59,673 bases of DNA, taken from assembly GCA_003568415.1 (NCBI GenBank), contig PWXV01000169.1:1-59673 (forward strand), read 5' to 3'. The notes under the pieces are model-generated. The model ran no database searches. It was not told the origin of the DNA and saw nothing but the letters and a program-made list of their open reading frames with translations. Origin of the DNA: Ignavibacteriales bacterium (lineage in GTDB: Bacteria; Bacteroidota; Ignavibacteria; T3Sed10-11). The position numbers were made by a program, and so were the translations under genes. Within the stretch, counting starts at the first letter, position 1. Each line of letters starts with the position of its first letter. Of this stretch, positions 6,820-49,382 are shown one piece after another.

Positions 6820-7212
6820 TTATTCTTTGTGGGTGGTTTCAAGTTGAATAAATGAACGCTTGCCGCGTCCCTTTAGAACAGTTTTCTTAGGTGTAAAAGT
6901 AACGGTATAGGTCGTTTGCGGTCCGTTGAGTTTCGAAACAATGATGTCGTAGGTGCCCCGTAAGTTTGATACAGCTTTGGTGAACGTTGCCGGCCCATGT
7001 TCAGGGATCGAAAACTGCGGGGGACTGATACCATGGATCGTAAAATATATAGTGTCATTATCGACGGAAACATTCACCAGTATATCGTATTTAAATGTTT
7101 TAAATTCCTTGACCGTGATCAACTCAAACACATGTCCCTGTTCGCCTTTCCGTTCATCGGTGTACGGAAATATTTTTAAGTGATATTCAAGCTCTGCTTT
7201 TTTCTGTGGCAT
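6820..7212 (-). CDS. Hypothetical protein between hisS and lgt
   Basis: A 130-residue, probably cytoplasmic beta-rich protein that starts MPQKKAELEYHLK. It contains a strand-rich core (HVFELITVKEF, YDILVNVSV, DTIYFTIHGI) and a basic stretch near the C-terminus (KKTVLKGRGKRS). The start at 7212 lies inside the end of hisS (26-nt overlap), and the stop is 7 bp before lgt, so translation is probably coupled. I do not recognise a family. The shape would fit a small single-domain beta-sandwich. Confidence 0.6.
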   Translation of the reverse strand: MPQKKAELEYHLKIFPYTDERKGEQGHVFELITVKEFKTFKYDILVNVSVDNDTIYFTIHGISPPQFSIPEHGPATFTKAVSNLRGTYDIIVSKLNGPQTTYTVTFTPKKTVLKGRGKRSFIQLETTHKE

Positions 7213-34554: not shown

Positions 34555-34583
34555 TTGACATAGAGGTCGCAAATATTTATCTT
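34555..34583 (+). promoter_or_regulatory. Candidate promoter of the first nrfA unit
   Basis: TTGACA (34555-34560), a 17-bp spacer and TATCTT (34578-34583) lie 66 bp before the nrfA start. A CTTAATTAAG palindrome overlaps at 34581-34590 and could be an operator. No sigma-54 -24/-12 pair is seen here, unlike the two downstream units. Confidence 0.5.
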
Positions 34584-34648
34584 AATTAAGACTATTTTAT
34601 CTTGAAATAGATGCGTGATTTTTGCTCAACTTTATACGGAGTAATGTA

Positions 34649-35983
34649 ATGTTAGTAAAACAGGTTCCTACATTATTTTTATCTTTTTTTCTTGCTTCAT
34701 TGATAGTACTTACCGGATGTGGACCAACCGAAGAACCGCCGGAACCCTTAACCGAAGACGAAACCGATCCTGCCCGCTTTGGAGAGTTTTATCCGTTCCA
34801 ATATGAAACCTTTATGAGAACAAAGGAGATGGAGGAAACAGAATACGGCGGTTCATATAACTATTCATATGTTGAGCGATTTCCTCAGTTGGAAAGAATA
34901 TTCGGCGGTGTCGGCTATGGACTTGATTATAATCGTGCCCGCGGACATTATTGGGCGATGAAGGATATGCTTTCTATTGAACGTTCTCCGAAATTTGTAA
35001 CGTGTTTTACCTGTAAATCTGCAGATGCTCCGAGGCTTATGGAGGAAATGGGGGATGCATATTATACAACTCCAATGGAAGAGTTTCTGGATGTCGAAGC
35101 CGAAATCGAACGACACGATGAACATCCCTATATGGATGTAAAGCATGCCTCAATTTCGTGCAGCGACTGTCATCATCCCGAAACAATGGATCTCAGAATA
35201 ACACGCCCGGCTTTAAAAGAAGCATTGGAACGCCGCGGCACTCTTGTTGAAGAATTAAGCCGCAATGATATGCGATCAATGGTTTGTGCACAGTGCCACG
35301 TTGAGTATTATTTCCATCCCGATCCGGATAACCGCAAGGTCATATTCCCGTGGGACGAAGGATTCGATCCGCAAGATATGGAACAGTATTGGGATTATCG
35401 CTTTACCGATATGGAACAATTTACGGAAACAGGTTTTTATGATTATCGACATCCGGACGTCGATGTTCCGTTACGTATTATTCAACACCCTGAATTCGAG
35501 ATGTTCCAGGGAGGTACCCATCAAACAAACAACGTAAGTTGTGCCGACTGCCACATGCCGGTGATCGAGGTTGACGGGCGACGGGAAATATCACATCACA
35601 TTACGAGTCCGTTAAAATATATTGAAGAAACTTGCCAGCAATGTCACAATCAAACAGCAGAGTATCTTGAAGGAAGAGTACATGCTGCTCAGGAACGAAC
35701 ATTGCGTATGCGAAGTCGTGCGGAGAATGCTATGCTTGCAGCACTTGATGTGCTCGAAGCTGCAAAAAATGCAAGTGGTGTAGATCAGGAACTCTTGTTT
35801 GAAGCCCGCCGTGCTTATACCGGTGCACATCTCAGATGGCAATATGTAAAAGCTGAGAACAGTATTGGTTGGCATAACCCGCAGAAAGCATTGGAGGCAC
35901 TTGGTGAATCGATCGATTTTGCCCATCAGGCACGAGATAAGGCGAACCGTGCTATGGGTGGAAGGGGGGTAGCCGGGCGATGA
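34649..35983 (+). CDS. nrfA: Pentahaem cytochrome c nitrite reductase NrfA, lipoprotein form
   Basis: Periplasmic ammonia-forming nitrite reductase of 444 residues. Five c-type haem sites are present: the active-site haem with lysine ligand CFTCK (about residue 118), then CSDCH, CAQCH (in the classic CAQCHVEYYF), CADCH and CQQCH. The signal peptide ends in the lipobox LTGC (Cys24), so the enzyme is lipid-anchored. The late ENSIGWHNPQ corresponds to the conserved C-terminal His ligand region. The ATG at 34649 is used because CGGAG lies upstream. It overlaps its tetrahaem partner gene by 4 nt. Confidence 0.93.
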   Translation: MLVKQVPTLFLSFFLASLIVLTGCGPTEEPPEPLTEDETDPARFGEFYPFQYETFMRTKEMEETEYGGSYNYSYVERFPQLERIFGGVGYGLDYNRARGHYWAMKDMLSIERSPKFVTCFTCKSADAPRLMEEMGDAYYTTPMEEFLDVEAEIERHDEHPYMDVKHASISCSDCHHPETMDLRITRPALKEALERRGTLVEELSRNDMRSMVCAQCHVEYYFHPDPDNRKVIFPWDEGFDPQDMEQYWDYRFTDMEQFTETGFYDYRHPDVDVPLRIIQHPEFEMFQGGTHQTNNVSCADCHMPVIEVDGRREISHHITSPLKYIEETCQQCHNQTAEYLEGRVHAAQERTLRMRSRAENAMLAALDVLEAAKNASGVDQELLFEARRAYTGAHLRWQYVKAENSIGWHNPQKALEALGESIDFAHQARDKANRAMGGRGVAGR

Positions 35984-36714
35984 GAGTACGAACCTTCATT
36001 ATTACCGGAATGCTTCTATTCATCGGTGTTGTAACAGTATATGCAGATCGACCGTTATCCGAGATCGGACACCCGGCTGTTGGTACTACCTTTACCGATA
36101 TTGTCCGGATCGCTACTATCCTTGCGGCATTCGCTTCATTGATATTGATAATTTATTTACAATTTTTCAGACAGCAACAGGAGATCGATACCGGCAGGAA
36201 GTGGCTGTATTTTATTGCATTGTTTATGCTGCCGGCCTTTGTGATGTTCGGCGGAACATATTTTTCACTGGAAGAATTCAAAGATGTAGAATCCTGTATG
36301 GATTGCCACCAGATGCATCCGTTTGGTGCGGATATGATGCTCAATCGTGAGTCGAATACGCTGGCTGCAAAACATTTCCGTAACAACTGGGTGAACGATC
36401 ATCAGTGTTACAGTTGTCATACCGGATACGGGGTTGCCGGAACGGTTCAATCGAAAATGGATGGATTGAGGCATCTTTACGGACGTGTAACAGGATTGTA
36501 TGAACGGCCGATTCGCTTTCGCGGGGTATTCCCCAATGCTAACTGTCTCAACTGTCACATCGGTGGAGAAAAATACGAATCGGTTGAATTGCACCGCTCG
36601 TTACACGAACGTATTCTCGAAGACAAAATATCCTGTATGCGCTGTCACGGCAATGTGCATCCATCGATGCAACACCGCTATTATCCGGTTGTAACGTACA
36701 GGGAGGAAAGATAG
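35980..36714 (+). CDS. Tetrahaem quinol dehydrogenase, NapC/NrfH-like, with extra membrane helices
   Basis: A 244-residue membrane cytochrome c predicted to pass electrons from the quinol pool to the upstream NrfA. Four CxxCH sites are visible: CMDCHQM (about residue 105, with the Met spacing of NrfH haem 1), CYSCH (142), CLNCH (187) and CMRCH (218). Before them lie an N-terminal hydrophobic or signal segment and two further membrane helices (about 40-63 and 74-95), whereas standard NrfH/NapC proteins have one. Encoded with a 4-nt overlap after nrfA and 2 bp before a small membrane protein gene. Confidence 0.85.
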   Translation: MRVRTFIITGMLLFIGVVTVYADRPLSEIGHPAVGTTFTDIVRIATILAAFASLILIIYLQFFRQQQEIDTGRKWLYFIALFMLPAFVMFGGTYFSLEEFKDVESCMDCHQMHPFGADMMLNRESNTLAAKHFRNNWVNDHQCYSCHTGYGVAGTVQSKMDGLRHLYGRVTGLYERPIRFRGVFPNANCLNCHIGGEKYESVELHRSLHERILEDKISCMRCHGNVHPSMQHRYYPVVTYREER

Positions 36715-36908: not shown

Positions 36909-37281
36909 ACGACTAAGTGACGACGCAACATTAATAATAGTGCAGCCGGTGCATTCGATGAACTGACCACGATACTACAATTGTTTTTCAAATCATTTGA
37001 CCTCGATGTTTTTTATCGGGAGAAAATATTCCGATTTCCACGACAGCAGGACTGATGGGTAAGTGAATATTCACCTGACTCTTAATGTGTTCAGTGCGAG
37101 AAAAATAATAAATAATCGCATCTGAAACTCTCTTTTAATTCCTACATTTAAAAAATAATTCCAATATTATACTTAGAACACTCAAAAAATTCCGGAATTT
37201 CGGGATTTTTATATGGCACGAATTTTGATTATTTATTATTGAGTAAATCGCTAACAATGAATTGTAATCCTATCAGACTAC
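36909..37281 (+). promoter_or_regulatory. Intergenic control region before the kinase gene
   Basis: This 373-bp gap holds a sigma-54-type promoter (listed separately), a perfect AATTCCGGAATT palindrome at 37188-37199, and an ATCGG/CCGAT inverted repeat at 37015-37035. The latter runs into CCGATTTCCACGACA (37031-37045), which resembles the repeated motif upstream of the porin gene. No gene or clear terminator was found. Confidence 0.5.
37214..37229 (+). promoter_or_regulatory. Sigma-54 promoter-like site before the histidine kinase
   Basis: TGGCAC, five bases, TTGAT matches the -24/-12 consensus TGGCAC-N5-TTGCW with a single change (A for C in the -12 element). It lies 52 bp before the kinase ATG. 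With a sigma-54 activator encoded in the same unit, autoregulation is plausible. Confidence 0.65.
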
Positions 37282-38538
37282 ATGAGTATCGAAATTTCAA
37301 AAAAGCAATTAATGCAAATCCTCGAAACACTCGATGTCGGGGTGATATATACCGATATCGACGGTAATATGTTGTACATAAACGAGCTTGCTGAAGAAAT
37401 CCGCGCTATCGATAGAGAAGATAAATTGGGTACCAATGTCATTGATTGCCACGCCATAAAAGGGAGACCGCACGTAAAGAAATTACTCGATGATTTCAAG
37501 GATGGTTCTGTAGATCACCGTCACCGGCTGGTGCGTATCAGAGATAAGTTTTTTGATAATAAATATCTTGTGGTACGTGAACCCGGCGGGGAACCGTCAG
37601 GTATTGTATTGATGAGTCAGGATGTGACCGAAAAAATTCAGCTCAAGAAAAAGCTCGATGAACATTACCAAACCCTGGAGTATGAAATTGGAAAGAAATC
37701 AAACGAGATCGAAGCCCGATATGAAGAGATGATGAAAATGCAGCAACGTTTGATGCATTCAGAGAAAATGTCTTCGGTCGGTCAGTTTGTATCGATCATT
37801 GCTCACGAAGTAAACAACCCGCTGGATGGCATTAAGAACTGTTTGCAGGAGATCAAGGAGGAACCGGATAACCTCGAACAGACGAAGAAGTACTCTTCAC
37901 TTGCGCTTGATGCATTAACAAAAATAGAAGAAGTTACCCGATTGATTCTGAATTATGCCCGGCCGGATAATTATTATATGGATGAAGTCAGTATTAAAGA
38001 GGTCATTGAGGAAAGTATCAAGTTTGCACAATATAAACTAACGCGAAATAATATTCATCTTGATGCCGCACTCGATCACGATATCAGTGTCAATGGCAGC
38101 AGGCAGCATTTGGCTCAGGTTTTTGTCAATATGATCATGAACAGTATCGATGCTATAAATGAGAAGCGCGACCGCTCTCCTGAAAACGGAAATACCAATG
38201 GCAGTTCAGATTATGTTCGTATCAGCATACAGGACTGCGGTGAACATGCCTGCATTAAGGTTGTGGACAGCGGATGCGGTATTGCAACAGAAAATGTTAA
38301 CGAGCTATTTAAGCCATTTTATACAACAAAACAGGAAAAGGGTACCGGCTTAGGATTATATATCTGTTTTAACATTGTATATATTCATAATGGAAAGATT
38401 TCTGTAAACAGTACCCCGGGTAAAGGCACGTGTTTTACCATTCATATTCCAAAATATTCTTACAGCGATGTCGGTAAAAGTATGGAAAGAGTTTCAGAAC
38501 TGAAGGACCGTGTTCTACAGGGATATATAGAGCAGTAG
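37282..38538 (+). CDS. Cytoplasmic PAS-domain sensor histidine kinase
   Basis: A 418-residue soluble sensor kinase without membrane segments. A PAS domain covers about residues 8-120, a coiled-coil linker about 120-160, the DHp helix has the phospho-acceptor His175 in IIAHEVNNPLDG, and the HATPase domain has N and G boxes (NMIMNSIDAI, VDSGCGI, GTGLGLYI). The PAS core has an adjacent Cys56-His57 (NVIDCH), which could bind a metal or haem or act as a redox switch; this is inference. The gene is followed after 12 bp by a sigma-54 response regulator and lies between the two nitrite/nitrate reduction units. Confidence 0.9.
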   Translation: MSIEISKKQLMQILETLDVGVIYTDIDGNMLYINELAEEIRAIDREDKLGTNVIDCHAIKGRPHVKKLLDDFKDGSVDHRHRLVRIRDKFFDNKYLVVREPGGEPSGIVLMSQDVTEKIQLKKKLDEHYQTLEYEIGKKSNEIEARYEEMMKMQQRLMHSEKMSSVGQFVSIIAHEVNNPLDGIKNCLQEIKEEPDNLEQTKKYSSLALDALTKIEEVTRLILNYARPDNYYMDEVSIKEVIEESIKFAQYKLTRNNIHLDAALDHDISVNGSRQHLAQVFVNMIMNSIDAINEKRDRSPENGNTNGSSDYVRISIQDCGEHACIKVVDSGCGIATENVNELFKPFYTTKQEKGTGLGLYICFNIVYIHNGKISVNSTPGKGTCFTIHIPKYSYSDVGKSMERVSELKDRVLQGYIEQ

Positions 38539-38550
38539 GATCGGAACAGC

Positions 38551-39906
38551 ATGAAAGTTATTATCATAGAAGACGAAAATATTAAGCTTGTTACACTTAC
38601 CGATGCATTACGTAAAAACGGATATGACGTGTATCCGTTCGACCATCCGAAACCGGCGTTGCAGGAATTTCACGCAAACGGCGCGGATATCGTCATTACT
38701 GATATGCGGTTACCATCGGTCAGCGGACTTGATATACTCAAAGATGTGAAACAACACGCACCCGATACCTATGTTATTGTGATAACGGCATACGGCACGA
38801 TTGAAATGGCCGTCGAAGCTATGAAGGCAGGAGCGCACGATTTCGTCATGAAGCCGTTTAAGTCTGATGAGATGGTTGCCGTCCTCAATAAAATAAAACG
38901 CTTCATTGATCTCGAGGAAGAGAATAAAGAGTTGCGGAGAAAGTTGTACGAGCGATATAAGTTTCACAATATTGTCGGCAAATCAAAGCCGATGCAGGAA
39001 ATATATGATGTGATTGAAACGGTTGCCGACAGCGATCATACCGTTCTCGTTGAAGGTGAAAGCGGTACCGGCAAGGAAATGATCGCAAATGCAATACACT
39101 ATAACAGTAACAGAAAAAACAAACCATTTATAAAAGTAAGTTGTGCAGCACTGACAGAGACTTTGCTTGAATCGGAGTTATTCGGTCATGCAAAGGGTTC
39201 GTTTACCGGTGCAATAAAAGACAAGAAAGGACGATTCGAGCTTGCCGACGGCGGCACGATTTTTCTCGATGATATAGATGATATTCCCGTTACTGTGCAG
39301 GTAAAATTGTTACGTGTGCTTGAACATAAAGGATTCGAACGGGTTGGTGGCACCGAAACGATTGACGTCGATATACGGGTTATTTGTGCAACAAAGGTAG
39401 ATCTGCTGGAGCATGTCCGGGAAGGAAAATTCAGAGAAGATCTGTATTACCGGCTTCGGGTAATTCCAATTCATATTCCTCCTTTACGGGAACGCAAAGA
39501 AGATATCCCATTGCTTATAGAACATTTTCTCAAACAAAATAAATCGGAAATACAATTAGAAGACGCTCTTCTCTCGAAATTTCTGGAATATAACTGGCCC
39601 GGGAATGTCAGACAGTTGTTTAATGCTGTTTCCCGTATTGCCACATTCATTAAAAAACCGGTCGTGACCATCGATGATGTACCATCCGACATATTTCAAC
39701 CCGGATCCGGTGACCACGAAACGAAAGTATCATTTAACGGAGGCGGTCGGTTTGATCTCCAGCGAGCCGTACATGATCTCGAAAGCAAAGCAATCTGCTG
39801 GGCGCTTGAGAAAACCGGAGGCAACAAAAAGCAAGCCGCTGAATTGCTCGGATTAAAGCGTAGCACCTTCCTTGATAGATTAAAAAATATAGATACACAG
39901 TTTTAA
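38551..39906 (+). CDS. Sigma-54-dependent response regulator of the nitrate/nitrite cluster
   Basis: NtrC-family regulator of 451 residues: receiver (phospho-acceptor Asp51 in ITDMRLPS), AAA+ domain with Walker A GESGTGKE and Walker B GTIFLDDIDD, and a Fis-type helix-turn-helix at the C-terminus. The sigma-54 contact loop is GSFTGA (about residue 216), a Ser for the usual Ala. The adjacent kinase is its likely partner, and sigma-54 sites before both the kinase and the porin gene are its likely targets. Confidence 0.92.
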   Translation: MKVIIIEDENIKLVTLTDALRKNGYDVYPFDHPKPALQEFHANGADIVITDMRLPSVSGLDILKDVKQHAPDTYVIVITAYGTIEMAVEAMKAGAHDFVMKPFKSDEMVAVLNKIKRFIDLEEENKELRRKLYERYKFHNIVGKSKPMQEIYDVIETVADSDHTVLVEGESGTGKEMIANAIHYNSNRKNKPFIKVSCAALTETLLESELFGHAKGSFTGAIKDKKGRFELADGGTIFLDDIDDIPVTVQVKLLRVLEHKGFERVGGTETIDVDIRVICATKVDLLEHVREGKFREDLYYRLRVIPIHIPPLRERKEDIPLLIEHFLKQNKSEIQLEDALLSKFLEYNWPGNVRQLFNAVSRIATFIKKPVVTIDDVPSDIFQPGSGDHETKVSFNGGGRFDLQRAVHDLESKAICWALEKTGGNKKQAAELLGLKRSTFLDRLKNIDTQF

Positions 39907-39929
39907 GCATTATCCGACCGGTGTGATGC

Positions 39930-39988
39930 GCCGGATTTTCGACAATGGTGCCGGAATTCCGACATAGGTGTGTGGTCGGAACCTCACA
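39930..39988 (+). promoter_or_regulatory. Repeated upstream activator motif before the porin gene
   Basis: GCCGGATTTTCGACA (39930-39944) and GCCGGAATTCCGACA (39950-39964) are near-identical and start 20 bp apart, two helical turns. A weaker third copy, GTCGGAACCTCACA, follows at 39975-39988. They lie about 28-86 bp upstream of the sigma-54 -24 element, where enhancer-binding regulators often act. Confidence 0.6.
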
Positions 39989-40015
39989 AAAAGCTCGTAA
40001 AATGCATTTTTGTAT

Positions 40016-40031
40016 CGGCATAAGAATTGTA
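40016..40031 (+). promoter_or_regulatory. Sigma-54 promoter-like site before the porin-napA unit
   Basis: CGGCAT, five bases, TTGTA keeps the invariant GG and the -12 TTG at correct spacing, with mismatches at outer positions compared with TGGCAC-N5-TTGCW. It lies 59 bp before the porin ATG and just downstream of the repeated motif. Confidence 0.55.
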
Positions 40032-40089
40032 TGTCTATTAGTGTCGATAATTTCACTATTAACGAAAATGTAAAAGGAGTTATAAAAAA

Positions 40090-41622
40090 ATGAGATCAAG
40101 TATTGTAGTATTATTGATAATGCTCTTTTTAATTCCGGCCGCTCAATCACAGATCAAAGTCAATGATGATGTGTCAATTGATCTGAACGGTGTGTTTACA
40201 ACCTGGTTCCAGTATCAAAATGATTTTTGGTTTGGACGATCGGATTATAAAGATTGGTATGCAGTCCAGATGCTGCGTTTCAGACCGGTTGTTAATTACG
40301 GGGAGAATATAAAAGTTGTGACCCGGTTTGATATGGGACAGGGTTGGTGGGGCGTCAATAATGAACCGCCATCAAATCCTGTTAATGCTCCGGGTCAGCA
40401 TCAGCGTCCGGGTAGTGCAACAGGTTTATTCGACAATAAAGATACCCATTACTTTTTCCACGTCGATCAGGCATATGTCTGGTTTAATGTTCCCAGCATC
40501 AATACTGCGTTCACGGTGGGACGTTCACAATGGCTTGCCGGGCACCGTCTCGTTATAGATAATCAGTATGACGGTGTGAAAGCTGATATTTCAATGAACA
40601 ACGGAAGTACATTATCGTTCGGATGGGCATTCGTCGCAAGCGGTGTTGACGGAATAAGTACGCTCGATAATGTTGCACCGGATTGGAGAGGTGCAACGGA
40701 TGCACGTAACTCTTATCTGTATCTTGCAAATTATAATACAAGACTTCAGAATTTTGGCAATACCGATCTCGATGTGTACACATTTTACTATCAGGACCTC
40801 TCGACTAACGATCACTTAGCATATATTCCGAACCGACTGGATTATAAGCGGCCTCGCTTTACACCGCAGGTGTCTCAGTTATTCGGTATTGGTGTCGCGG
40901 GTAACTCGAAGTTCGGCGATCTTTCACTCGAGTGGGAGGCTAACTACCTGACCGGTAAAGATGATTTTGGAAATAATGGCTATGGTGCAGCGCTTGATAT
41001 GGATATTAATGACGGAGACCTTCGCGGATACAATGCGTATGTACGTGGTCAGTATGCAGTATCACCTGCATTTTCACTCGGTGGTTTTCTCGGACTCGGA
41101 TCGGGTGATCCCGATGGTCCGTGGGGTGGAACGGGTAACGTAAATAAATTACGCACCGCTGGATTCTGGTATCTGACTGAGGTTTGGGAGGATTCAATAA
41201 TGCCGGATGAAGAGGGTATTACTCCGCAGGGCCTCGGTGCACCGAACGTTCGAGGCTATCGTGAGCTCGAAAACACAACTGCAGGCCAGATTAATTTTAC
41301 CTATCGCCCGATTCCCCGGCTCAGTGCATTTTTCTCATATACATTGCTACGTGCTACCGAACCTATCTACGCCTGGCAAGTTGATATCAATGAAGACGGC
41401 ACACCCGGTTCTGACCACGGTCCCGTCCAGAATGTAAGTGCTCAGGATATCGGTTGGGAATTCGATTTTAAATTCGACTATCGCTTGCTTGACGGATTAA
41501 CGTTGACTGCACGCGGTGGATATTTCGATCCGGGTACCGCAGCAGGTTATCTGATTAACGGTTCGGATCAGTGGCTGGATCCTGCATGGGAATTGAAAGG
41601 TGAAGTTACATTTGCTTTCTAA
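40090..41622 (+). CDS. Outer-membrane porin of the nitrate reduction unit
   Basis: A 510-residue beta-barrel with a cleavable signal peptide (MRSSIVVLLIMLFLIPAAQS) and a terminal Phe (GEVTFAF), the usual outer-membrane insertion signal. The repeated amphipathic strands and Gly/Asp-rich turns resemble alginate-export-type or other large porins. It has the strong Shine-Dalgarno AAAGGAG. As the first gene of the nap unit it probably admits nitrate or nitrite; substrate specificity is inferred only from context. Confidence 0.78.
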   Translation: MRSSIVVLLIMLFLIPAAQSQIKVNDDVSIDLNGVFTTWFQYQNDFWFGRSDYKDWYAVQMLRFRPVVNYGENIKVVTRFDMGQGWWGVNNEPPSNPVNAPGQHQRPGSATGLFDNKDTHYFFHVDQAYVWFNVPSINTAFTVGRSQWLAGHRLVIDNQYDGVKADISMNNGSTLSFGWAFVASGVDGISTLDNVAPDWRGATDARNSYLYLANYNTRLQNFGNTDLDVYTFYYQDLSTNDHLAYIPNRLDYKRPRFTPQVSQLFGIGVAGNSKFGDLSLEWEANYLTGKDDFGNNGYGAALDMDINDGDLRGYNAYVRGQYAVSPAFSLGGFLGLGSGDPDGPWGGTGNVNKLRTAGFWYLTEVWEDSIMPDEEGITPQGLGAPNVRGYRELENTTAGQINFTYRPIPRLSAFFSYTLLRATEPIYAWQVDINEDGTPGSDHGPVQNVSAQDIGWEFDFKFDYRLLDGLTLTARGGYFDPGTAAGYLINGSDQWLDPAWELKGEVTFAF

Positions 41623-41643
41623 CAATGGAAAGGAGTGACCCTA

Positions 41644-42162
41644 ATGAAAATACAAACAAAAGATGCGGGAATATTTCTCGTATTACTCTTCTTCGGGATA
41701 TTTTTTGTTTTGAGTTTTACAACCCGGGAAGATACGTATGCTTTTCTGAATAGCGCACCGAGTTTTGAATGTATGGACTGCCATATCGGTGCTGAGGATT
41801 ATGTCATAGATATAATGCTTGAGGGGATGCCTGAACGGTATGAACCCAGCAAGACGTATGAACTCAAACTCATTATAAGAAGCGATCTTGAAAGTATCAG
41901 CGATATTAAAGGCGGATTTGCTGCACAAGCAACCGCGGGTGAATTATTGGAAAAGGATGAACTAAACACACAGATAAGCGGGGATTATTTGACCCATACG
42001 ATGGAAGGGAATAAATATCGTGAATGGACAATCGGCTGGAAGGCACCACAGGTCGCCGATGAGCGGGTGGATATAGAAGTTATGGTTGTCGCTGCAAATG
42101 GTGATTATTCTCCGTCAATGGATGCAGTCGGTTTTGAAACATTTCGAACCGACCCGGAATAA
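41644..42162 (+). CDS. Membrane-anchored monohaem cytochrome c with Reeler-like domain
   Basis: A 172-residue protein with an N-terminal membrane anchor or signal (about residues 8-25), a single haem site CMDCHIG (about residue 42) and a C-terminal beta-sandwich. The pattern YEPSKTYELKL, then GGFAAQ, then WKAPQ and VVAANGDYS resembles Reeler-type domains. It lies where other nap operons often have napB or napC. A role in electron transfer to NapA is suggested by position alone. The ATG at 41644 has AAAGGAG about 10 nt upstream; the frame also has a GTG at 41635. Confidence 0.7.
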   Translation: MKIQTKDAGIFLVLLFFGIFFVLSFTTREDTYAFLNSAPSFECMDCHIGAEDYVIDIMLEGMPERYEPSKTYELKLIIRSDLESISDIKGGFAAQATAGELLEKDELNTQISGDYLTHTMEGNKYREWTIGWKAPQVADERVDIEVMVVAANGDYSPSMDAVGFETFRTDPE

Positions 42163-42209: not shown

Positions 42210-45200
42210 ATGAAACTTAAACGTCGTGATTTTCTCCGGCTAACAGCACTTGTTACAGCGTCGGCTGCAGCGGGGTTCTATCACACCGACAAATTGCTCG
42301 GGGTACCTGCTTCGGTGAAGGATGTACCGGTGGGGCAATGCCGGTACTGTGCGATCGGGTGTACCACGATGGCTCAGGTTGAACTCGATCAGGATGGCAA
42401 AGTAATGAATGTGCTGGGCATTAAAGGAGATTTGAACAGCTCCGTTAATCGTGGTGTCCTCTGTACGAAGGCATTTTATCTGCATCGAGCACTCGAGTAT
42501 GCAGACCGTCCGAAGCGTCCACTCATCAGGCGCGAATGGATAAACACCGAGACCGGTAAACCCGATCTTGCGAATTCACCGCGCGTACGTGAGGGAAGAA
42601 CCACAAAGGATGCATATGGCTTGAAGCCGTCTGAAGAAGATATGAAAGAAAATTTTGTTGCCGTTTCGTGGGAAGATGCACTTGAATTTATTACATCTTC
42701 AGTAGAGAAATCAATAAACGAGCACGGGAAATTCAGTGTCGGCTATTACGGCAGTGGACAGGCAGGTACCGAAGAGACGCACATCTTTAACAAAACCTTT
42801 AAAGGCGGCGGTATGCTTGCCAACAACACGATTGAGGGCCAACCGAGGACGTGTATGGCGAGCGCTGTGGTCGGGTATTTATACGCCTTCGGTAAAGACG
42901 AGCCGTACGGTTCCTTGAACGATCTCGATGTACCGGATCCGGATTTCGGCAAGCACGCAGATACCTATTTCCTTGTCGGTAACAATACTGCCGAGGCACA
43001 TCCGATTTTATTTAACAGGATTGCCGCGGTAAAAAATAAAAATCCCGATGAGGTGAAAGTTATACTGGCAGATCCGCGTAAAACACGATCGGGAACGATA
43101 TCGGATCTCTGGCTACCGCTGGCAAGTGGTCGCGATCTTGCATTACTTAACTCGATGACGTATGTCATCGCAACCGAACTTGATAAAGCCAAGTACGATG
43201 TGGAGAATGGAACCGTCGAAGCGGAGTGGAAGTATCTCGATAAAGAATTCATTCGCCGTCACGTTAACTTCGGTATTCACGAAGATGTAAAAATGAACTG
43301 GATCAAGACCGAATACGGCGGTGTTCGTGAATCGACGTGGGATCTTGCATACTCAAATAATCCGCGCCAAACGTATCCCGATCCGAAAAAGGTATACGAA
43401 TCTGAAGAGGAAGTTGAAAAGGATCTTTACAAAGGCTTTGCCATCTTTCTGAAATTCCTCGAAGATTACAGTCCTGAAAAGGTTGCAGACCTGATCTTTG
43501 ACGGGGAAAGTCCGCAGCGCTACGACCGGGAAACACGTACGTGGTCAAAGATCGGCGGTGAAGAGGCGATCCGCCTTGTGGCGAAATGGTTTGCCGAAGG
43601 ATATACCACAACAACGTGGTGTATGGGCATTAACCAGAAACTGCAGGGAGTATGGTCGAATGCGACCCTTCATATGCTTCACCTCATAACAGGGAAAGCA
43701 TGTAAGCCGGGTCGTCACGCATTCAGCTTTACCGGTCAACCCAACGCCTGCGGTGGTATACGTGCACCGGGTGCATTGTGCCACGCGCTGCCATATGGCC
43801 GGTTGGTCGCAAATCCGGTTCATCGTGCACACGTTGAAGGTATATGGAAGAGACGGGTGGAAAACTACCTCCAGGCAAAAGGAGTGTCGAGTTCACTTAT
43901 CCGGGAAGAGGTGGATAAGATTGCAGTTCATCCGCAGCCCGGTCCACATACCATGGAAATGTTCCGCCGGTATGCTGCAGGTCAGATTAAAGTAATGTTC
44001 ACATCGACCGTAAACCCGGGCGCAAGCTTACCGTATGCATATCCTTATCGGTTAGCCTGTGCCGCGGCACATCAGGGAGATCCGTTCCCTGTTACAGCTG
44101 TGCTTGAAGCATATCCAAACGCGACGACACAAGTTGCGGATATTGTCTTCCCTGCTTCGAGCTGGTATGAGAAAGAGTTCTCTTACGGAAACCTTGAGCG
44201 AAGGCATCAGCTCATACGAAAGGTGCTTGATTTCCCGGGCGAGACGTTACCCGATTCGGTTATCTTTGGTATGATAATCAGGCGGCTTGAAGATAAAGGT
44301 CTCGTACCAAAAGGTCACGTTGCTCAGTTCTGGCCGGAAGAGTACGGTGACGATTGGGTACAGAAAACCGTCGAGGATTCAAATAAAGAAGGATGGATGC
44401 GGAAATTTACCGCCAACATATGGGAAGAATTGCAGGAGCTTACCGGCGGTACCGGTTACGATATGACTGGTATGGATCGTGAGAAATTAATCGAACGTAA
44501 CTGGGGATACCGGCAGCCGTTTCCCAAGGAATATCATACCGATGCCGATATCAAAGCAAGATACGATAAGTACGAATCCAGTATTCAGTATGCATATCCC
44601 TACGATCCGATTGTTGATAACCGGACACAGGGATATATAAACAATCTGAAAAAATGGAACCCGCAATATGCATCGTATATCGAAAAACGGCTGGAAGAAG
44701 AGAAGCGGGATACCGATTATCACCGGAAACATAATGTTCCGGAAGGTTGGTACGTCAGCTTCTATCACGCGAATCCGTTCCATCACGGTATGGTCGATGA
44801 CCCGACGCAGGACGGTGGCAGATTGTTTGTCGTAGATGGACGTGCAACTGCCTGGGCCAATCCGTGGTGGGCATGCAAATGGGATGGTAAAGAGTTCAAG
44901 AAATATGATCGAGTTCAGATCACCGAACGACGGTTTAATGAAGAGAAAATACAAGAAAACGTGACCGCGCCGTTCGATGTCGTTCAGTCATATGAAGGAT
45001 CGGTTATTGGTAATCCCGACCGTGATAAGAATGCATTGCTCAGTATTGCATTGAGTCCTGGTGAATTCCCCGGCGTCCGGCAAGCGTATCGTCATAATGG
45101 TAATGAAATCGTCATTTACGATACAAGGGAATACAATATCGGTGCGTGTACAGGTCGTATACTTGAACACTGGCACACCGGAAGTATGACGACCCGGGTG

Positions 45201-45536
45201 CGTGAACTTGCCCGTGCGGCACCGGGAGCGTTTGTCGAGATCAATTCTGAACTCGCGGAGGAGCTTGGTATCAGTTCAGGCGACCGGGTTATTGTGGAGG
45301 CGTTGCGCGGTCAGATCGAGCTCGAAGCGCGTATTCTCGATGCAACACGAATGACCGGTGGTCCTCGCAAGGATTACGTGTTCATTCCGTTCTTCGATGA
45401 GAAGAAACTGATCAATATGATATTGCCCGACCGGTTCGATCCGTTCAGCTTCCAGATGGATTACAAGATGTTTGCTGTGAAGCTTCGGAAAGGAACTATG
45501 CGTGAAACCCAGGCGGTGCCGGGTAAGGTGATATAG
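42210..45536 (+). CDS. napA: Periplasmic nitrate reductase NapA, oversized form
   Basis: Molybdopterin oxidoreductase of 1108 residues, with a Tat signal (KRRDFLRL at 4-11). The [4Fe-4S] site is Cys44, 47, 51 and 85. The Mo-ligand Cys (about 215) lies in RTCMASAVVGY, the NapA pattern. Further NapA-like blocks are GINQKLQGVWSNATLHMLHL, FTGQPNACGG (about 508) and TGRILEHWHTGSMTTRV (about 980). E. coli NapA has about 830 residues, so roughly 280 extra residues are spread over several insertions, most between the TGQP and EHWHTG blocks. Nitrate is the best-supported substrate; another oxyanion cannot be excluded. Confidence 0.88.
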   Translation: MKLKRRDFLRLTALVTASAAAGFYHTDKLLGVPASVKDVPVGQCRYCAIGCTTMAQVELDQDGKVMNVLGIKGDLNSSVNRGVLCTKAFYLHRALEYADRPKRPLIRREWINTETGKPDLANSPRVREGRTTKDAYGLKPSEEDMKENFVAVSWEDALEFITSSVEKSINEHGKFSVGYYGSGQAGTEETHIFNKTFKGGGMLANNTIEGQPRTCMASAVVGYLYAFGKDEPYGSLNDLDVPDPDFGKHADTYFLVGNNTAEAHPILFNRIAAVKNKNPDEVKVILADPRKTRSGTISDLWLPLASGRDLALLNSMTYVIATELDKAKYDVENGTVEAEWKYLDKEFIRRHVNFGIHEDVKMNWIKTEYGGVRESTWDLAYSNNPRQTYPDPKKVYESEEEVEKDLYKGFAIFLKFLEDYSPEKVADLIFDGESPQRYDRETRTWSKIGGEEAIRLVAKWFAEGYTTTTWCMGINQKLQGVWSNATLHMLHLITGKACKPGRHAFSFTGQPNACGGIRAPGALCHALPYGRLVANPVHRAHVEGIWKRRVENYLQAKGVSSSLIREEVDKIAVHPQPGPHTMEMFRRYAAGQIKVMFTSTVNPGASLPYAYPYRLACAAAHQGDPFPVTAVLEAYPNATTQVADIVFPASSWYEKEFSYGNLERRHQLIRKVLDFPGETLPDSVIFGMIIRRLEDKGLVPKGHVAQFWPEEYGDDWVQKTVEDSNKEGWMRKFTANIWEELQELTGGTGYDMTGMDREKLIERNWGYRQPFPKEYHTDADIKARYDKYESSIQYAYPYDPIVDNRTQGYINNLKKWNPQYASYIEKRLEEEKRDTDYHRKHNVPEGWYVSFYHANPFHHGMVDDPTQDGGRLFVVDGRATAWANPWWACKWDGKEFKKYDRVQITERRFNEEKIQENVTAPFDVVQSYEGSVIGNPDRDKNALLSIALSPGEFPGVRQAYRHNGNEIVIYDTREYNIGACTGRILEHWHTGSMTTRVRELARAAPGAFVEINSELAEELGISSGDRVIVEALRGQIELEARILDATRMTGGPRKDYVFIPFFDEKKLINMILPDRFDPFSFQMDYKMFAVKLRKGTMRETQAVPGKVI

Positions 45537-45544
45537 AAAAACAA

Positions 45545-45577
45545 AGACCTGACAGGTTTTCAAAACCTGTCAGGTCT
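45545..45577. repeat. Perfect 16-bp palindrome between napA and napG
   Basis: AGACCTGACAGGTTTT and its exact complement are separated by one base. It sits 8 bp after the napA stop and 21 bp before napG. It could be a repetitive palindromic element of the kind spread in FCB-group genomes, an mRNA-stabilising hairpin, or a partial terminator. There is no T-run at the end. Confidence 0.9.
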
Positions 45578-45598: not shown

Positions 45599-46420
45599 TT
45601 GAAAAAACGTTCATTCATAAAATCAATAACAACGTTTCTCGGTGGACTATTAACAGCCGGGTTGTCCTCAATCCAGGCAAGAGGCAACGGACAAGAGCTA
45701 CCTGAAATACCCGAGGACGAGGCAAACGATGCATTGGAACGTCCGTTGCATTCGTTTCTGAATAAATATGATATCGTACCGCGAAGAGGACGCCCGGCAT
45801 CATATATACGACCTCCGGGAGCGTTGTTGCATGAAAGAAGATTTCAATCGCAGTGTATAAGCTGCGGTGCATGTGTGAACGTTTGTCATATAGAGAAATA
45901 TAACGCAGTTGTTCTTGACGGTGCAGGCGATGTGAGAAATTTCGGAACACCGTATGTAAAAGATATGCGGGATTTCCCATGCACATTGTGTATGAAGTGT
46001 CCCGATGTTTGTCCGACCGACGCACTGTCGCCGATTGAAATAGACGATGTTGAGATGGGCATGGCATTAATTGACTATTCAATATGTCTCGGATGGAACG
46101 GTGATGTTTGCCTTTCGTGCAGTAAGGCGTGTCCGCTCGGTGAACGGGTATTTGATTTTTATCATGGTGAATGGGGAAATCAGCCCGATATCAATCAGGA
46201 TTGTGTCGGCTGTGGTTTATGTGTGAAGTTTTGTCCGGTAGGTGGTTCGGCTATCGCAGTCGTGACCCCGAAACAATATGAACAACTGAAGAATGAATTT
46301 TTACATGAACGGGATTCAATCCTTCAGATGGATCATATGGAGCGATACGATTTAATTTACGGTGAGAATTTACCAAAGCTAATGCAGCGGGGTACGATTG
46401 AAGAACGTTGGTATAACTAA
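45599..46420 (+). CDS. napG: Ferredoxin-type protein NapG
   Basis: A 273-residue periplasmic iron-sulfur protein that with NapH forms a quinol dehydrogenase feeding NapA. It has an N-terminal Tat-like segment (KKRSFIKS with a KR pair in place of RR) and four [4Fe-4S] motifs: CISCGACVNVCH, CTLCMKCPDVCP, a variant CLGWNGDVCLSCSKACP and CVGCGLCVKFCP. The start is a TTG at 45599 without a clear Shine-Dalgarno; no better start lies nearby. It overlaps napH by 23 nt. Confidence 0.9.
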   Translation: MKKRSFIKSITTFLGGLLTAGLSSIQARGNGQELPEIPEDEANDALERPLHSFLNKYDIVPRRGRPASYIRPPGALLHERRFQSQCISCGACVNVCHIEKYNAVVLDGAGDVRNFGTPYVKDMRDFPCTLCMKCPDVCPTDALSPIEIDDVEMGMALIDYSICLGWNGDVCLSCSKACPLGERVFDFYHGEWGNQPDINQDCVGCGLCVKFCPVGGSAIAVVTPKQYEQLKNEFLHERDSILQMDHMERYDLIYGENLPKLMQRGTIEERWYN

Positions 46421-47270
46421 ATTGTCCGTCATCAGACGAGCAGTAATGCTCGGTATCCTGACAGTGTTCGTTTTACAGTTTTTCAGGATTGATGCACTTA
46501 TCGGCGGATTATCCGGAGCTGATATATTCGGCATTATAAAGATGCTCGATGTATTTGCGTTTATCGAGACAGTTGCAGCATCGTTGAGCATTACATGGAC
46601 GGTAACAACGTCAGTATTGGCAGTTGTTATAATTTATCTGTTATTCGGCCGGTCATTTTGCGGCTGGGTATGTCCGTACGATCTGTTTTTTTCCTGGGTT
46701 CAAAAAATACGCCGGATTGTATTCCGGGCAAAAAGAAATAAACCCATTGTTGCTGAACGTGCGGGAAAACTACATAAAGCAGGATATATACTTATTGGAT
46801 TGCTGCTCATTGCATCAGTCATTATCGGGATACCGTTCTTTACAAAGTATTTTTCGCATTTGACGAATTTCTTCAGAATGATATCCACAGGTGTGTATTA
46901 TTCATCGGATGTGCCGGTGAGTGTCTACATGCTTGTTATCTCGGCGGGTATTGTTGCAGCGTTTTTAATTCTGGAATTGATATTTCCCCGCTATTGGTGT
47001 CGTTACTTTTGTCCGGTTGGCAAGGTGTACGGTGGTTTTAATAAAGTGAGCGTTATTAAATTGCGTTTTAAAGATATGGAAACCTGTACACAATGTTATC
47101 TCTGTCAGAGTAATTGCTATATGGATGTGCCGCTTACGGAATTCATCGATCAAATGAAAAATAACGAGGTGAAAACCGCGACACTGCGGTCAACCGATTG
47201 TATCTATTGTGGTTTGTGTGAGGAACATTGCGGTACCCAAGCGAATATAAAGATTAGTATGAAACCTTAA
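46398..47270 (+). CDS. napH: Membrane ferredoxin-type protein NapH
   Basis: A 290-residue inner-membrane protein with about four to five membrane helices. Two cytoplasmic Cys motifs (CGWVCPYDLFF and CRYFCPVGKVYG) and two C-terminal [4Fe-4S] motifs (CTQCYLCQSNC and CIYCGLCEEHCG) match NapH. It should oxidise quinol and pass electrons to NapG. The start is uncertain: TTG at 46398 keeps the basic N-terminus; other options are TTG at 46422 and ATG at 46446. Confidence 0.9.
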   Translation: MKNVGITKLSVIRRAVMLGILTVFVLQFFRIDALIGGLSGADIFGIIKMLDVFAFIETVAASLSITWTVTTSVLAVVIIYLLFGRSFCGWVCPYDLFFSWVQKIRRIVFRAKRNKPIVAERAGKLHKAGYILIGLLLIASVIIGIPFFTKYFSHLTNFFRMISTGVYYSSDVPVSVYMLVISAGIVAAFLILELIFPRYWCRYFCPVGKVYGGFNKVSVIKLRFKDMETCTQCYLCQSNCYMDVPLTEFIDQMKNNEVKTATLRSTDCIYCGLCEEHCGTQANIKISMKP

Positions 47271-47593: not shown

Positions 47594-48934
47594 ATGAGTG
47601 AAAATAAATCAAAGCGATACCTCATTTTCGGAGGTGTTGTAGTTCTGACAATTGCTGTACTTGCACTGCTGGTAACGATCATTGAACGTGTGCATGAAGG
47701 GCGGGTCGATTACTTAATGATCACCAAGATCGAGCCGCTTGAGCCCGATCCTGATAAATGGAAAGTAAATTTCACGAAACACTACGATGATTATATGAAA
47801 ACATACCGGACTGCCGACCTGGTCGATTATCCTAAGTTTGGAAAGTACGGTGGTCCCGTGCAGTTTTCAAAGCTGGAAGAATATGAACATCTGAAACGTT
47901 TGTGGGCCGGATATCCTTTTTCCCTTGACTATAATCAAGCGCGGGGTCATATGAATGCGCTGCAGGATATGCTTGATTCGGAGCGGTTGGGAGATGATAA
48001 ACCGGGCACCTGTATGAGCTGTAAGAGTCCGGAGGTGCCGTTGTTTATGGAGGAATACGGGATAGAAACATTTTACCGAACTCCTGTCCGAGAGCTCGTG
48101 GACGTCCATGGATTTGAACATTCAGTTTCCTGTGCAGATTGCCATGATGCAGAGACAATGGACTTAAGGATCTCCCGACCGGCGTTTACAGAAGCGATGG
48201 AACGGAGGGGAGTTGACCTGTCGCAGGCAACACGGCAGGAAATGAGAAGTTATGCTTGTGCACAATGCCATGTTGAGTATTATTTCAAAGGAGAGGGAAA
48301 TTATTTAACCTTCCCCTGGGATTACGGACTTACAATCGATGATATCGAAGAATATTTCGACGAGCGGGATTTTGCCGATTGGGTACATGCCGAAACCAAG
48401 GCACCGATGATCAAAATCCAGCATCCGGAATTTGAATTGTGGTCGACAGGTGTCCACAGCAGAGCGAATGTCTCCTGTGCGGACTGTCATATGACATATA
48501 AACGAGAAGGTGCCGTGAAAATAACCGATCACTGGATTCGGTCACCGTTGGTAAATATATCCCAATCCTGTCTCACATGTCATCGTCAGGATGAGGAGGA
48601 GATGCGAGACCGGGTAATTCAAATACAGGAACGTACCAAGAAATTGCTTGCACGAACGGAGGATGCATTGATCGATGCTATCGATGCAATAGTCGAGGCT
48701 ATGGAGGCAGGTGCAAGTGATGCGGCTCTGGAAGAAGCACGGCAATATCATAGAAGTTCACAAATTCGATGGGATTTCATTTTTTCGGAGAACAGTACCG
48801 GTTTCCATAGTCCGCAGGAATCCGCCAGAATACTTGGCGATGCCATCGATTATGCACGGAAAGCAGAGTTTGCCGCATTTCGTGCTATGGTGGGTGCGGA
48901 TCCAATACGAGTAACATTTCAAAATAACCAATGA
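47594..48934 (+). CDS. nrfA: Pentahaem nitrite reductase NrfA, membrane-anchored form
   Basis: A second ammonia-forming nitrite reductase, 446 residues. Haem sites are CMSCK (active site, about residue 138), CADCH, CAQCH (again CAQCHVEYYF), CADCH and CLTCH, with ENSTGFHSPQE near the C-terminus. The N-terminal hydrophobic helix (about 9-30) lacks a clear cleavage site or lipobox, so it is probably an uncleaved anchor. It differs widely from the first NrfA outside the motifs, so the two are old paralogues or separately acquired. It has GAAGGAG upstream and nrfH follows after 10 bp. Confidence 0.94.
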   Translation: MSENKSKRYLIFGGVVVLTIAVLALLVTIIERVHEGRVDYLMITKIEPLEPDPDKWKVNFTKHYDDYMKTYRTADLVDYPKFGKYGGPVQFSKLEEYEHLKRLWAGYPFSLDYNQARGHMNALQDMLDSERLGDDKPGTCMSCKSPEVPLFMEEYGIETFYRTPVRELVDVHGFEHSVSCADCHDAETMDLRISRPAFTEAMERRGVDLSQATRQEMRSYACAQCHVEYYFKGEGNYLTFPWDYGLTIDDIEEYFDERDFADWVHAETKAPMIKIQHPEFELWSTGVHSRANVSCADCHMTYKREGAVKITDHWIRSPLVNISQSCLTCHRQDEEEMRDRVIQIQERTKKLLARTEDALIDAIDAIVEAMEAGASDAALEEARQYHRSSQIRWDFIFSENSTGFHSPQESARILGDAIDYARKAEFAAFRAMVGADPIRVTFQNNQ

Positions 48935-48944
48935 GAAAATCGTT

Positions 48945-49382
48945 ATGAAAAAGTTACAAATGAGTTTGATTATCTTTATTGCGATTCTCATCGGTGCCGG
49001 TGCCTATACGGTTTATTATGGACAGGGATATTCATATCTCTCCGACGATCCATCTGCGTGTATGAATTGTCACGTTATGGAGGATATGTATCTTACCTGG
49101 GAAACATCATCACACCGGGATGTAACGTGTAACGAATGCCACGTACCGCACGGGTTTATCCGGCAATATACGGCAAAAGCTACCGACGGTATTTACCACG
49201 CAGCCGTGTTTACCTTTGATGAGCCACAGGTAATCCGTTTACGGGAGTCGCGCTATGAACGAATATCGGAAAATTGTATCCGGTGTCATGAGTCGATGGT
49301 TGCATTCATCAACCGGGGGGACGGACAACTTTGTACCGATTGTCATATAGGTGTAGGACATCCATTGCAGTATAAAAAATAA
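48945..49382 (+). CDS. nrfH: Tetrahaem quinol dehydrogenase NrfH
   Basis: A 145-residue NapC/NirT-family cytochrome with one N-terminal membrane helix (about 5-25). Four haem sites are CMNCHVM (residue 39, with the Met ligand spacing typical of NrfH), CNECH (about 62), CIRCH (about 111) and CTDCH (about 129). It anchors NrfA and feeds it electrons from menaquinol. The gene lies after nrfA here, the reverse of the common nrfHA order. Confidence 0.93.
   Translation: MKKLQMSLIIFIAILIGAGAYTVYYGQGYSYLSDDPSACMNCHVMEDMYLTWETSSHRDVTCNECHVPHGFIRQYTAKATDGIYHAAVFTFDEPQVIRLRESRYERISENCIRCHESMVAFINRGDGQLCTDCHIGVGHPLQYKK

Follow-up and report, generated by a model that had tools for sequence, protein, structure and literature searches.

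The stretch of DNA analysed here, referred to as the window and 59.7 kb in length, carries a cluster of respiratory nitrogen genes on its forward strand together with a two-component system. A PAS-domain sensor histidine kinase (HK, 37282-38538) is followed by an NtrC-type response regulator (RR, 38551-39906), the proposed activator, and then by a porin-like gene (40090-41622), the first of the operon, whose product matches NF033939 below the cut-off and whose place is conserved. The next genes encode a choice-of-anchor V domain protein (anchV, 41635-42162; NF041895 above the cut-off), a 1108 aa periplasmic nitrate reductase NapA of a novel type (42210-45536; PMC5516251), a NapG-like ferredoxin (45599-46420) and a NapH-like quinol dehydrogenase (46398-47270), and after a small gene that is NapD-like by eye come a second NrfA, the ammonia-forming nitrite reductase (47594-48934; PF02335), and an NrfH-like cytochrome (48945-49382) named from its CxxCH motifs and position only. 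The gaps between the downstream genes are short, and the nitrate-to-ammonium gene set, which is complete, could be read as one transcript. An nrfA and an nrfH-like gene are also found upstream of the HK gene, and two distinct nrfA/nrfH-like pairs (34622-36714 and 47594-49382) flank the HK-RR system, with only the second lying within the nap operon.

Two further features accompany these genes. A perfect 15 bp inverted repeat, AGACCTGACAGGTTTT C AAAACCTGTCAGGTCT, occupies 45545-45577 in the gap between napA and napG and is present as a single copy in the window; it could be a mobile palindrome or form an mRNA hairpin by which the amount of NapA relative to the other products is set. Directly after the nap-nrf operon lies a Moco riboswitch (RF01055, 49507-49660, forward strand, 56.6 bits), followed by two genes named by eye, a small one resembling carboxymuconolactone decarboxylase and a mobA-like one.

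The RR combines three domains scoring above the cut-off, namely a receiver (PF00072, Response_reg), a sigma-54 activator domain (PF00158, Sigma54_activat) and a Fis-type DNA-binding domain (PF02954, HTH_8). The receiver aspartate is present, as are the Walker A motif GESGTGKE at residue 169 and the GSFTGA loop at residue 216, the counterpart of the GAFTGA motif that contacts sigma-54. NtrC-family activators usually have a Glu as the second acidic residue of Walker B, whereas the RR reads GTIFLDDIDD at residues 235-244 and thus has Asp-Asp in place of Asp-Glu, as do its orthologues in Candidatus Kryptonia and a relative in a genome of the window's own genus (G005). This is a conservative change that is, to our knowledge, not exclusive to inactive proteins. 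When the RR was used as a query against viral contigs no match was obtained. The N-terminal PAS domain of the HK includes a Cys-His pair (DCHA, ECHP, MCHP and QCHP) that is conserved in all four orthologues and points to a ligand or cofactor inside the cell; that the signal is nitrate, nitrite or NO is a guess, and a literature search on a role of haem in this type of PAS domain gave nothing useful.

Of 391 genomes in the class, only three apart from the window's own carry NapA of this kind: Candidatus Kryptonium thompsonii (G071, locus L041), Candidatus Chrysopegis kryptomonas (G138, locus L047) and a member of the same genus group (G039). The gene order HK-RR-porin-anchV-napA-napG-napH is identical in the window and in these three genomes of hot-spring bacteria (Candidatus Kryptonia), where the RR orthologues are 56-57% identical to the RR of the window. 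Four further Kryptonia genomes do not encode nap; three of them have only a 46% identical RR paralogue and the fourth, which is 71% complete, has no match at the threshold used. This co-occurrence is the pattern expected of a dedicated regulator and, together with the adjacency of the genes in all four genomes, it argues in favour of the proposed connection between the regulator and the nap genes lying downstream of it. The nap loci outside the Kryptonia (L042-L046) have neither an orthologous HK-RR pair next door nor a sigma-54 element before nap, and for that reason this form of control seems to be limited to the lineage of the window and the Kryptonia.

The intergenic region between the end of the RR gene (39906) and the start of the porin-like gene (40090) holds two 20 bp direct repeats, at 39930-39949 (GCCGGATTTTCGACAATGGT) and 39950-39969 (GCCGGAATTCCGACATAGGT), which share 16 of 20 bases and lie 20 bp apart. 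The original prediction had spoken of near-identical tandem units with the sequence GCCGGA-TTnnCGACA; the repeat is real, but this wording of the unit was not the best one, and GCCGGAnTTnCGACA describes it better. A 20-mer match of such quality at a spacing of 20 occurs nowhere else in the window, and a pattern scan allowing up to three mismatches located the tandem pair a single time in the 4.0 Mb genome to which the window belongs and not at all in the genomes of eight relatives. Exact CCGGAWTTYCGACA has three matches in the genome, of which two are the repeat units themselves and the third (C80:7027) was discarded as coding, being located inside a 292 aa ORF.

The activator site is probably better described as a 16 bp dyad, TGNC-N8-GNCA, which was predicted by phylogenetic footprinting. 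The downstream dyad (39949-39964, TGCCGGAATTCCGACA) agrees with it at all six positions, is palindromic in seven of its eight base pairs and has its centre 60 bp before the GG of the -24 element, whereas the upstream dyad (39929-39944, CGCCGGATTTTCGACA) agrees at five of six positions and is centred 80 bp before the GG. A weight matrix built from Kryptonia sites only ranks them 2nd and 8th, respectively, among 59,658 positions of the window. A single dyad is common, with 15 perfect matches in the window, which is about the expectation from base counts. The weaker third copy that had been proposed (39973-39988, TGGTCGGAACCTCACA) is probably not a site, as it retains only four of the six dyad positions, ranks 3411th with the matrix and is offset by 24 rather than 20 bp from the second copy.

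The putative sigma-54 promoter of the nap operon is a -24/-12 element at 40016-40031 (CGGCATAAGAATTGTA) that begins 28 bp past the end of the third copy, just where it had been anticipated, and from which transcription is predicted to start near 40042. It differs from the consensus TGGCACG-N4-TTGCW at more than three positions and, given that even at three or fewer mismatches the window contains 90 matches compared to 73 expected, it is unconvincing when taken by itself. It becomes credible because it is conserved: the core GGCA-N6-TTG precedes the porin-like gene in all four genomes (CGGCATAAGAATTGTA, TGGCAGGAAATTTGAT, TGGCATAAATTTTGAT and TGGCATAGAGTTTGAA), 65-74 bp before the start codon position as taken from alignments, and such a match arises by chance about 0.004 times per shuffled region. 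A second element (TGGCACGAATTTTGAT, 37214-37229) precedes the HK-RR genes; with one mismatch it is nearer to the consensus than its nap counterpart, and equivalents are present in all three Kryptonia loci. The GG at -24 and a TTG-type -12 are hence found at fixed spacing in each of the eight promoters (nap and HK in four genomes), and rpoN is found in all four genomes, the match to PF04552 in the window's genome scoring 206 bits. It is also conceivable that the operon has a housekeeping-type promoter, that the GGCA...TTG is incidental and that the dyads are recognised by another class of regulator, for instance one of the CRP/FNR type, whose dimers would suit the size of the dyads and for which there is a precedent in Desulfovibrio desulfuricans HcpR1, which binds TGTGA-N6-TCACA before nap (PMC5701242). 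Such an arrangement is improbable, however, considering the recurrence of GGCA-N6-TTG in 8/8 promoters, the presence of a sigma-54 activator as the neighbouring gene and the lack of a sigma-70-like match on the plus strand between the dyads and the porin-like gene.

The comparison of the four genomes extends to the activator sites. A TTYCGAC half-site is located 58 bp from the -24 GG in the window, 57 bp in G039 and 59 bp in G071, each of which has a frequency of less than 0.001 in shuffles. Within 160 bp upstream of each of the eight promoters there are in total 4 perfect and 14 near matches to TGNC-N8-GNCA, as opposed to means of 0.08 and 2.1 in shuffles, and for Kryptonia alone with the window left out the counts are 3 perfect and 12 near against 0.05 and 1.4, although the corresponding P values are optimistic since the promoters being scored are also the source of the mask. 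The stronger points are the matched distances and the specificity for the spacer, as spacers other than 8 give only 2-6 near matches. The dyads occur in series, mostly in steps of 11 or 18-20 bp: at the nap promoters they are centred 80 and 60 bp before the -24 GG in the window, 79 and 61 bp in G071 (with another at 50) and 101 and 83 bp in G138, and at the HK promoters 75, 64, 53 and 42 bp in G071 (with another at 33) and 52 and 41 bp in G138. The nap promoter of G039 is the exception with a single half-site only. Hence the footprinting that had been suggested as a check recovered the gene order and the sigma-54 element in all three relatives and phased dyads before nap in two of them. The recurrence of phased dyads with a sigma-54-type element, next to a regulator with NtrC-family domains and a GSFTGA loop, is consistent with the site design of NtrC-family regulators that had been recognised in the window. 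That a pair of similar words has by chance come together with a degenerate match to a promoter is extremely unlikely; such a coincidence would accord with the background level of the -24/-12 element taken alone and with the outcome of dinucleotide-shuffling the intergenic region, which yields an equally good 20-mer self-match at any spacing of 12-45 bp in 21 of 5000 trials (~0.4%), but not with the reappearance of both kinds of element at matching distances in other genomes.

Other candidate sites in the neighbourhood are less clear. No TGNC-N8-GNCA dyad lies within 160 bp of the -24 element of the HK promoter in the window, and autoregulation of HK-RR through such a dyad was rejected for the window, where the nearest 5/6 match is 243 bp away, yet G071 and G138 do have close sites. 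A palindrome that resembles an activator site (TTCCGGAATTTCGGGA, 37190-37205) ends 8 bp upstream of the HK-RR -24/-12 element and is perhaps a site of autorepression. The first nrfA (34622) was also considered as a target and discarded, with one 5/6 dyad at 34556 and no sigma-54 element seen. A paralogous arrangement is found in the same-genus genome G005 (L037, C294, 2962-8106), in which genes for a periplasmic-binding-like protein, an HK and an RR come first; they are followed by the sigma-54 element TTGGCATATTGTTTGA at 6999 and then by a gene for a porin-like protein, and dyads that agree at five of six positions lie 94 and 113 bp ahead of the -24.

Taken together, these features suggest, with a probability of about 0.83, that an NtrC-family two-component system activates a sigma-54-dependent operon for dissimilatory nitrate reduction to ammonium and that the adjacent RR binds the phased dyads. 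It has been established for the NtrC family in general that dimers bind DNA, assemble an AAA+ ring and activate sigma-54 RNA polymerase. By analogy, the PAS kinase would phosphorylate the RR in response to an intracellular signal, probably nitrate, nitrite or something formed from them, for instance NO, and phosphorylated RR dimers would occupy the dyads at 39929-39944 and 39949-39964. Dimers on the phased sites may then assemble the AAA+ ring, which would span the approximately 60 bp to the promoter and open it where sigma-54 RNA polymerase keeps it closed at 40016-40031, such that transcription would begin near 40042. The operon under control would comprise the genes for the porin, anchV, napA, napG, napH, the small gene, nrfA and the nrfH-like cytochrome and would enable the respiration of nitrate to ammonium. 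With around 20 sigma-54 activator genes in the window's genome and with close paralogues in existence, the sigma-54 promoter could be real while another activator binds the dyads and the adjacent RR controls something else. This is unlikely, though less so than the alternatives considered above, as HK-RR adjoin nap in 4/4 genomes, the orthologue is missing from the nap-less Kryptonia and the tandem site occurs nowhere but at this locus.

The -12 element of these promoters is unusual. The GC doublet is missing, TTGC being present in 0/8 promoters, and the nap element ends in the non-canonical TTGT. Occurrences of YTGGCAYRN4TTG+X were counted in forward and reverse orientation and compared to a reversed-pattern control. 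For the window's genus, represented by six genomes, this gave 23 observed versus 25 control sites for C, 64 versus 14 for A and 78 versus 33 for T, whereas Kryptonia gave 23 versus 2, 33 versus 4 and 9 versus 4, respectively; inspection of 30 TTGA sites taken from across the 14 searched genomes placed 20 of them outside ORFs of at least 110 aa. As a lead, it appears that the enrichment of sigma-54-like sites in the window's genus concerns those having A or T at -12 and not those having the canonical C, and the TTGT of the nap promoter, weak though it looks, is in keeping with a genus in which TTGA and TTGT are enriched. Tentatively, and with the odds somewhat against it, sigma-54 in this genus may have shifted its -12 specificity towards TTGA/TTGT with a loss of TTGC enrichment, while Kryptonia would use both TTGC and TTGA. 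If this were true, the nap promoter would be ordinary for a sigma-54 system that has drifted, and the lineage would offer a natural experiment on how a global sigma factor changes its promoter. Two promoter consensus sequences that differ at -12 are on record for Bradyrhizobium japonicum (PMC3162934).

The proposed system would give an uncultured lineage and Candidatus Kryptonia a dedicated switch and a likely DNA site for nitrate reduction, and no such switch for these lineages is described in the literature searched. A 2025 survey of sigma-54 regulons found that the control of nitrogen metabolism fades and is then absent in many classes (PMC12316311); the locus would be an exception to this fading for respiratory nitrogen genes and may extend sigma-54 two-component control of nitrate and nitrite respiration beyond Desulfovibrio, besides hinting that the -12 element may have shifted. 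The NapA of the window is of the type reported as novel from Candidatus Kryptonia and Desulfurivibrio alkaliphilus, and the enzyme of the latter is similar to that of Kryptonia; the D. alkaliphilus operon napAGHD is highly expressed in nitrate respiration (PMC5516251) and likewise pairs this NapA with napG and napH while lacking napB. Unlike the locus of the window, the nap loci of L042-L046 are without the adjacent two-component genes and promoter element. The RR resembles regulators of the NtrC/AtoC/ZraR type in its domain set, its GSFTGA loop and the tandem, phased sites that precede a sigma-54 element, but differs in its own site sequence, the Asp in place of the usual Glu of Walker B and a -12 ending in TTGT. 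The nearest functional match appears to be NrfS-NrfR of Desulfovibrio, a two-component system that acts with sigma-54 on nrfHA and for which a site is also predicted in front of nap (PMC6456213, PMC5701242). Both are sigma-54 two-component systems beside nrf/nap genes, but the system described here belongs to another phylum and its regulator gene immediately precedes a nap operon of the novel type that contains nrfA. Sites of the NrfR relative LurR, such as GTCCGCTTTTTCAGAC, have outer GTC/GAC triplets 10 bases apart in place of TGNC-N8-GNCA; 39948-39963 (GTGCCGGAATTCCGAC) agrees by eye with GTC-N10-GAC at 5/6 positions, but the conserved dyad has a different centre. With NrfSR compared by description, the system is thus classed as working like NrfSR rather than as NrfSR, because site geometry and lineage differ.
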